From Methanobacteriota archaeon (GTDB lineage: Archaea; Halobacteriota; Bog-38; Methanoflorentales; Methanoflorentaceae), in assembly GCA_003170935.1 (NCBI GenBank), contig PMYA01000070.1:11653-25396 (forward strand): a DNA stretch of 13,744 nucleotides. The letters are read 5' to 3'. The position numbers and the translations under genes are program-made. The notes under the pieces are model-generated. The model did not search any database. It had not been told where the DNA came from and was given only the letters and a program-made list of their open reading frames with translations. Below are positions 1,642-2,952 of this stretch, one piece after another (the first letter of the stretch is position 1; every line of letters begins with the position of its first letter).

Positions 1642-1833
1642 TTGAAAGAAGTTGTTGAAGAACTTACTCGTTATGAAAGGGCCAGAATCGTCGGGGCGCG
1701 CGCTTTACAGCTTTCCATGGGCGCTCCAACGTTGATTGAATCTAACACAACAGATCCAATCGACATGGCGCTTGATGAGCTCAAGAAAGGGGTTATCCCA
1801 ATAACAATTAAGCGCCGCGGGACCCCGAGATGA
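1642..1833 (+). CDS. rpoK: DNA-directed RNA polymerase subunit K (Rpb6/omega homologue)
   Basis: A 63-residue RpoK, the archaeal counterpart of eukaryotic Rpb6 and bacterial omega, which helps assemble and stabilise the largest polymerase subunit. The block [20 protein letters not shown] (residues 8-27) is the conserved Rpb6/omega signature, and the end (IPITIKRRG) is typical of archaeal members. The start is TTG 1642, preceded by a strong AAAGGAGG Shine-Dalgarno at about 1627-1634. Its stop TGA (1831-1833) overlaps the ATG (1830) of the decayed enolase frame, preserving the ancestral rpoK-eno translational coupling. Confidence 0.96.
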
Positions 1834-2341
1834 ACTCGATTGAAGCAATATCAGTCGGCAAGATATTTGATGAAAACCCGATAGCCGTAACAGAAGTGGA
1901 GATAGTAACGACCCGCGGCTGATGTCTATGTTCTTATCCGGTCCGACGCGACACAGTCAAAAAAGCACGAGAACAAGTTATAGCGCTTATTGGCTCAGAA
2001 TTGAATCAGCAGGCAGAAATCGACGAGTTGCGCAAGCGATCTTTTCATTGCATAATATAAGGCGAGGGGACTACTCTGGCACTGATAGCACTAAAAACGG
2101 TTTCGAGCGTTTTTGAGGATTATGCCAGTGAGAAGGCTAAAGGACACTGCTATGAGTGCACACAGACAAATCGACGACCTGCGAAACAGAAACTTTACGT
2201 GTCGCAGTTGCATTGCCCGCCCCCATTCATTAAGCTGAACGTTAAGGGCGGTTAAAGTACAGCAAAACGATTGAACTAATACGCATAGAACAAGAACTAT
2301 TTGACGGAAAAAACTATAGGATAACAAATAAACCGAACTAA
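1830..2341 (+). pseudogene. eno: Enolase pseudogene (decayed, large internal deletion)
   Basis: Remnant of enolase (2-phosphoglycerate to phosphoenolpyruvate), which in many euryarchaea lies between rpoK and rps2. ATG 1830 overlaps the rpoK stop and opens an enolase-like start (SIEAISVGKIFDENP, then TEVEIVTT) that stops at TGA 1920-1922. A shifted frame just after reads MFLSGPTRH, resembling the VPSGASTG loop. The first frame resumes at 1953-2042 with TVKKAREQVIALIG and QQAEIDEL, like the enolase helix ending in QxEID. Bases 2190-2255 read KLYVSQLHCPPPF then NVKGG, like the LPVPMMNVINGG region. Bases 2267-2341, in another frame, give ELIRIEQELFDGKNY and a stop TAA, matching the enolase C terminus (QLIRIEQEL). 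About 240 codons of the barrel, with the metal-binding acidic residues and catalytic lysines, are missing. With several stops, frame changes and the deletion, one sequencing error cannot explain it. The alignment is from memory of the family, not computed. Confidence 0.85.
2311..2318 (+). promoter_or_regulatory. Possible TATA-like element ahead of rps2
   Basis: AAACTATA preceded by a purine-rich GGAAAA sits in the last part of the enolase remnant, about 25 bp before position 2342 and 38 bp before the rps2 start. That spacing would fit an archaeal TATA/BRE pair giving a short leader. The match to the archaeal TATA consensus is poor and the region is AT-rich anyway, so this is only a candidate. 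Confidence 0.18.
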
Positions 2342-2355
2342 CGAGAGGTGGAGCG

Positions 2356-2952
2356 ATGGAAGAAGTCACAGAATACGAATCAATCATACCGGTGGACGAG
2401 TACCTAGCTGCTGGGGTCCATATTGGCACTCAGCAAAAAACAGAAGATATGAAGCGTTTTGTTTACCGCGTCCGAGCAGATGGACTTTACGTGCTGGACG
2501 TCAAGGCCACAGATGACCGTATAAAAACTGCTGCTAAGTTTCTAAGCAAATTCGACCCAGCACGTATACTAGTGGTTTCGGCACGACAATACGGCCAATT
2601 CCCGGCTACGATGTTTGCCAAAGTGATAGGGGCAAAATCAATGGTAGGACGCTTTATACCGGGCACGCTTACAAATCCTGAATATAGAGACTTTGTAGAG
2701 CCAGATGTAGTGGTTGTTACAGACCCTATAGGAGATTTACAGGCAGTCAAGGAGGCCGTCGATATTGGAGTTCCGGTAGTCGCAATGTGCGACACGAATA
2801 ACATGACGATGCATATTGACGTAGTTATTCCGACCAACAACAAAGGGCGGAAAGCTTTAGCGCTTATCTATTGGCTGCTGGCGCAGGAGATTGCTAAGCT
2901 TCGCGGCCAACAAATGGACTACGCCTTAAACGATTTCGAAATCGAGATCTAA
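2356..2952 (+). CDS. rps2: Small ribosomal subunit protein uS2
   Basis: A 198-residue archaeal uS2 of the small ribosomal subunit. Diagnostic segments are [20 protein letters not shown] near the N terminus (residues 13-32), then [20 protein letters not shown] (about 98-117), [20 protein letters not shown] (about 145-164) and [13 protein letters not shown]. The ATG at 2356 is preceded by GAGGTGG at about 2345-2350, a good ribosome binding site. With enolase decayed, more than 500 bp without an intact gene separate it from rpoK. Either the operon transcript reads through the remnant or rps2 has its own promoter. Confidence 0.97.

Follow-up and report, generated by a model that had tools for sequence, protein, structure and literature searches.

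The closest known counterparts of the locus studied here are found in archaeal genomes carrying two enolases, one of which lies in the operon slot between rpoK (RNA polymerase subunit K/Rpo6) and rps2 (ribosomal protein S2), an enolase slot also depicted in a figure legend of PMC5817203. In PMC4390880, two enolases are reported for all Methanococci, all Thermococci, and several Methanomicrobia, the copy adjoining Rpo6 and S2 is described as fast-evolving, and it is proposed that glycolysis is left to the second copy, with the operon copy confined to an ancillary function. Here, we examined the rpoK–rps2 interval in a 13,744-nt stretch of contig PMYA01000070.1 (hereafter “the window”), which belongs to a metagenome assembly of a Methanobacteriota archaeon (GCA_003170935.1) and in which an initial annotation had described a decayed enolase gene. 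We confirm that the pseudogene at positions 1830–2341 of the window derives from an enolase homolog and occupies this slot. With high confidence, we interpret them as the fossil of a genus-level pseudoenolase that was already non-catalytic and that decayed while a catalytic enolase (E2) persisted elsewhere in the genome.

The remnant starts at 1830 with an ATG that shares an ATGA overlap with the rpoK stop codon, as the initial annotation had noted, and ends with a TAA at 2339–2341, 14 bases upstream of the rps2 ATG; 522 bases separate rpoK from rps2. The closest same-genus genome compared was G003 (locus L003), whose rps2 protein is 95% identical to that of the window. The rpoK–rps2 interval aligned from end to end with the open 362-codon gene of L003, whose start likewise overlaps the rpoK stop as ATGA; in 6/6 same-genus genomes, the slot gene was open. 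When the remnant was compared by blastn with the six genus slot genes, L003 gave 79.3% identity over 222 columns (E-value 1e−51) and 78.6% over 281 columns (E-value 3e−59), these E-values referring to a six-sequence database. A tblastn search of the window with the L003 protein recovered three homologous pieces in two frames (Table 1). The decayed homolog that had been proposed for the slot, with its several stops and split frames, was thus borne out both by frameshift-tolerant alignment and by comparison of the interval among relatives.

In addition to an in-frame TGA and a 572-base deletion, the remnant differs from L003 by one 3-base deletion and four 1-base indels (an insertion at 2225 and deletions after 2031, 2154, and 2263), and the three frames of 1830–2341 contain 6, 16, and 10 stops. 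These lesions, and the complete frames with Pfam families found in 16/16 neighbouring genes scanned, agree with the loss in place, by internal deletion and point decay with the neighbours kept, that was envisaged at the outset. Two details of the initial annotation did not survive. The remnant is 512 bases long, versus 1089 in the nearest intact gene, so that approximately 192 codons are missing rather than about 240, a figure that fits only a canonical enolase of ~400 codons. Moreover, the string “MFLSGPTRH”, taken for an SG loop, is an off-frame reading: the homologous register at this site is stop-CLCSYPVRRDTVKKAREQV, and the SGAST-loop region of the remnant reads CSYPVRRDTVKK, following the loop-less family described below. 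On the evidence available, we regard the fossil as genuine.

The intact slot proteins of the genus have the enolase fold, and they resemble enolase (phosphopyruvate hydratase, TIGR01060) in domain order, in the C-terminal NELIRIEQEL block, and in operon position. Unlike enolase, they lack catalytic positions, and the two that were scanned scored 92.8 and 102.6 bits against TIGR01060, below its cut-off of 300. As references for the alignment, we used 18 slot-type enolases and 25 from outside the slot, each with 13/13 catalytic positions (catalytic and metal-binding positions are numbered as in yeast enolase); L073, counted among the 18 slot-type enolases, lies away from rps2, and the 260-residue frame L070_E2, which is located at the end of a contig, was excluded. 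In this alignment, S39, H159, Q167, E211, K345, and H373 were missing from 6/6 same-genus slot proteins, and the gaps coincided with the stretches carrying the SGAST, GGAHA..QEF, and DEGG motifs. The six genes amount to about five independent ones because L006 and L008 are nearly identical.

A protein search with L003 (807 hits) showed that this loop-less family is well sampled: at least 41 clusters at 43–97% identity occurred among the best 120 hits listed, after which identity dropped to ~30%, at the level of ordinary enolases. The same six positions were missing in 37/37 full-length clusters (351–366 residues), and no SGAST loop was found in any intact full-length family member. The remaining 4/41 clusters, which were shorter than 340 residues and were excluded from the counts of 37, likewise showed none of the six positions, but truncation may explain their gaps. 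D246, E295, and K396 were retained in most family members, although not in all, and D320 was still present in P0040 and P0041, which form the most divergent pair. The family formed one clade (Shimodaira–Hasegawa-like approximate likelihood ratio test [SH-aLRT] 100, stem 0.83) in a tree built by a quick method, with long branches flagged. Fifteen canonical enolases share 62 invariant columns; the family has a different majority state at 38 of these and keeps 16 in ≥95% of its members. The omega of the slot gene was 0.11–0.41 in 12/15 pairs, which shows that selection holds the slot frame open in the relatives. Several family members are named “enolase” in a source database. The divergent member P0041 is labelled “Candidatus Acidoferrum”, a bacterium, whereas the other family members look archaeal; it perhaps comes from a mis-binned contig.

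Another enolase-like family in NCBIfam, NF006223 (PRK08350; “hypothetical protein”, 341 positions), is, like the slot proteins, shorter than enolase. The two slot proteins scanned scored 57.4 and 57.9 bits against its cut-off of 624, with two scanned canonical enolases scoring higher (105.5 and 130.9), and the cut-off was exceeded in 0/21 genomes. The term “pseudoenolase” was not found in the open-licence literature searched, where arCOG01170 is named by PMC4390880 only.

With L004, L006, and L007 as the outgroup, 54 changes fell on the remnant branch, distributed by codon position as 19/19/16, and 20 fell on the L003 branch, distributed as 4/6/10. Judged by these substitutions, the pattern of the remnant is flat, as would be expected without coding constraint. 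A tree built from 160 columns placed the remnant with P0005, P0006, P0007, P0008, and P0010 (95/85), with P0009 just outside, and the end branch of the remnant was 0.71, versus 0.035–0.10 for P0005–P0010. Its identity to the P0005–P0010 proteins was 63–68%, and its identity to L003 was 62%. Since the remnant is closer to P0005–P0010 by both tree and identity, lineages more closely related to the window than any of the same-genus genomes compared probably have open copies, and the decay is probably local. The position of the remnant within the loop-less family, albeit on a long branch, makes it very probable that the gene from which it directly descends was non-catalytic before the decay. P0005 represents 62 member sequences.

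The genome from which the window derives (G000) encodes one full enolase, on contig C162, with 401.7 bits and 13/13 catalytic positions. The best solved relative of this E2 by sequence is 2pa6 (MJ0232), and it forms one clade with its orthologs from G001–G004. E2 presumably does the glycolytic work; the glycolytic enolase was not lost, and what was lost is the pseudoenolase. The suggestion that the fossil represents the enolase of the cell is not supported, given the complete enolase at G000:C162 and the relatives' slot copies without catalytic loops and residues.

Our survey comprised 60 genomes including that of the window, and the 58 with an rps2 match were classified (G045 and G046, which matched neither rps2 nor enolase, were left unclassified). 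A canonical slot enolase was present in 32/58 genomes, alone in 27 and with E2 in 5. Pseudoenolase and E2 occurred together in 5/58, which are 5/6 of the same-genus genomes, and a slot-type enolase lay away from rps2 in 3/58. E2 without a slot enolase by profile was found in 17/58, namely, 16 genomes and G000, whose slot holds the fossil. In 7 of these 16 other E2-only genomes, the slot DNA was read, and the rpoK–rps2 spacing was 1–154 bases, depending on the chosen start codon; for the other 9/16, the absence of a slot enolase comes from the profile search. The expectation that enolase is usually single-copy did not hold in this set, in which 10/58 genomes had two enolase-type genes. G017, G023, G032, G041, and G043 carry an enolase in the slot and another elsewhere, and both types had 13/13 positions among those aligned; these genomes possibly represent an earlier stage of the same replacement. 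In G006, the E2 gene (G006:C200:22444-23154) gave two abutting matches, to PF00113 3–54 and 100–294, possibly reflecting a frameshift or an internal gap.

The arrangement in this genus resembles that of the in-situ paralogs of Methanococci and Thermococci (arCOG01169/arCOG01170), which PMC4390880 describes as a fast-evolving operon copy beside Rpo6/rpoK and a second enolase elsewhere; unlike in that case, one species here has lost the gene to decay. In the order of Methanothermococcus (26 genomes), we found a weak enolase-like open reading frame (ORF; 310–337 residues) in 25 genomes, 24 of which also had a strong enolase, and one genome had neither. An rpoK-like ORF, recognised by eye, lay 28–190 bases upstream of the weak ORF at 3/6 loci read, and at the Methanothermococcus rps2 loci L043 and L045–L047, an enolase stood beside rps2 in 0/4. 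Five aligned Methanococcales ORFs, like the genus proteins, lacked S39, Q167, K345, and the H373-R374-S375 block; they differ in lineage and in their length of 310–337 residues, most members of the present family having 361–366. The pseudoenolases of the genus and of the Methanococcal genomes formed separate clades in the best tree, and a joint clade was not rejected (approximately unbiased [AU] test, p 0.212) in an analysis that covered Methanococcal, not Thermococcal, sequences. The canonical slot copies of 32 genomes in the phylum of the window would make an independent origin likelier, and this genus looks like one more case of an in-situ slot paralog, probably an independent one.

We propose that the lineage would once have had two enolases, a copy in the rpoK–rps2 slot and a fully catalytic E2 elsewhere. 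The slot copy would then have lost three active-site loops and its catalytic residues while remaining open, selected, and enolase-folded, presumably in some non-catalytic job. In the lineage of the window, this job would have ended, and the gene would have acquired a nonsense codon, small frameshifts, and the 572-base deletion; the remnant would now be changing without coding constraint between an intact rpoK and rps2. We infer both this order of events and the non-catalytic role of the slot protein. The decay seems to mark the final stage in the retirement of a redundant enolase copy, and on present evidence the lost paralog was apparently dispensable as well as already non-catalytic.

Several observations weigh against this reconstruction. 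The contrast in codon position between the remnant and L003 branches was not significant (Fisher p 0.17), and the remnant is a long branch, which makes its placement uncertain according to the warning of the tree program. The omega of rpoK (63 codons) reached 0.34 in close pairs, and the slot gene is therefore clearly looser only in comparison with rps2 and E2. G005 has a pseudoenolase, but no E2 was found in this 61% complete genome. Furthermore, the lesions are carried by a 77% complete, 186-contig metagenome assembly, and 2/4 of the 1-base indels sit in short homopolymer runs, where sequencing errors are commoner. The fragmented assembly and the homopolymer indels would also suit an assembly or strain-mixing artefact, whereby the slot gene would be open in the species and the contig would contain errors or represent a collapsed chimera. 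However, the 572-base deletion, the stop made by substitution, and the 54 position-even branch changes are not sequencing errors, 16/16 neighbours are intact, and a whole-genome search for a second slot-type copy returned only E2 and the three remnant pieces (genome 77% complete); we consider such an artefact very unlikely.

It is just as improbable that the fossil was the working enolase of the organism, lost in place. The enolase homology and the slot are indeed real, and canonical enolases occupy this slot in 32/58 genomes, but a complete enolase is present elsewhere in the genome, the remnant groups (95/85) among proteins without an active site, and the preserved text, with CSYPVRRDTVKK in the SGAST-loop region, matches the loop-less family. 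Least probable of all is a new role for the interval, for example, as a 30-codon leader peptide coupled to rpoK or as an operon RNA element. The interval has kept its start codon and still overlaps rpoK, leaving a 30-codon ORF; nevertheless, substitutions are blind to codon position across the remnant as a whole. No terminator-like site was found in 1600–2400, where a promoter/terminator scan with a bacterial consensus only gave no signal above shuffles. An Rfam search of the window listed nothing at the gathering score, a weak negative because the tRNA-Pro detected by ARAGORN was likewise missed.

Beyond the non-catalytic pseudoenolase favoured here, we suggest a broader interpretation, tentatively and with rather less than even confidence. 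The operon enolase may have a second, non-catalytic job, and once glycolysis passes to another enolase, the copy in the slot may either vanish or be stripped to that job, independently in at least this genus and the Methanococci; in the window's species, the stripped copy would then have been knocked out naturally. If so, the 58 genomes would span every stage: a canonical slot enolase alone (27), slot enolase with E2 (5), pseudoenolase with E2 (5), pseudoenolase with no E2 found (1), fossil with E2 (1), and E2 with no slot enolase found (16), whereas the slot-type enolase of the other 3 did not lie beside rps2. On the reading favoured here, what seemed to be the loss of a central-metabolism gene is recast as the end of a replacement series, the earlier stages of which survive in relatives. 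Because selection maintains the family in relatives and it is dead here, a comparison of species with and without it could provide a handle on the ancillary role proposed in PMC4390880.

Table 1. Features of the rpoK–rps2 interval, in positions of the window
Feature	Position	Strand	Evidence
Slot pseudoenolase remnant, whole pseudogene, former start to former stop codon	1830..2341	+	Alignment with open L003 slot gene
5' piece, L003 slot protein codons 1–72	1830..2045	+	tblastn 60% identity, E-value 6e−20
In-frame TGA, codon 31 of former frame	1920..1922	+	Sequence, frame-0 translation
Junction of 572-base deletion versus L003 (~L003 codons 78 to 268)	2060..2061	+	Alignment
Middle piece, L003 protein from ~residue 269	2061..2150	+	tblastn match 2061–2267 (residues 269–338), 47%, E-value 3e−10
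3' piece, different frame, L003 residues 302–361 and former stop	2156..2341	+	tblastn match 2156–2335, 60% identity, E-value 1e−15
rpoK (RNA polymerase subunit K/Rpo6), intact	1642..1833	+	PF01192, 48.2 bits; TGA overlaps ATG at 1830
rps2 (ribosomal protein S2), intact	2356..2952	+	PF00318, 84.1 bits

Upstream of rps2, the plus strand carries GAGGTGG at 2345..2351, which we take to be a Shine-Dalgarno-like motif. The tRNA-Pro (CGG) reported by ARAGORN is located at 1539–1612, between rpoN and rpoK. Positions 1–79, directly before rpl18e, look like a tRNA-Leu that the edge of the window has truncated to its 3' part; it is absent from the ARAGORN output. On the minus strand, a 112-codon frame at 2091–2429 crosses the remnant into rps2 and was taken as a chance occurrence.
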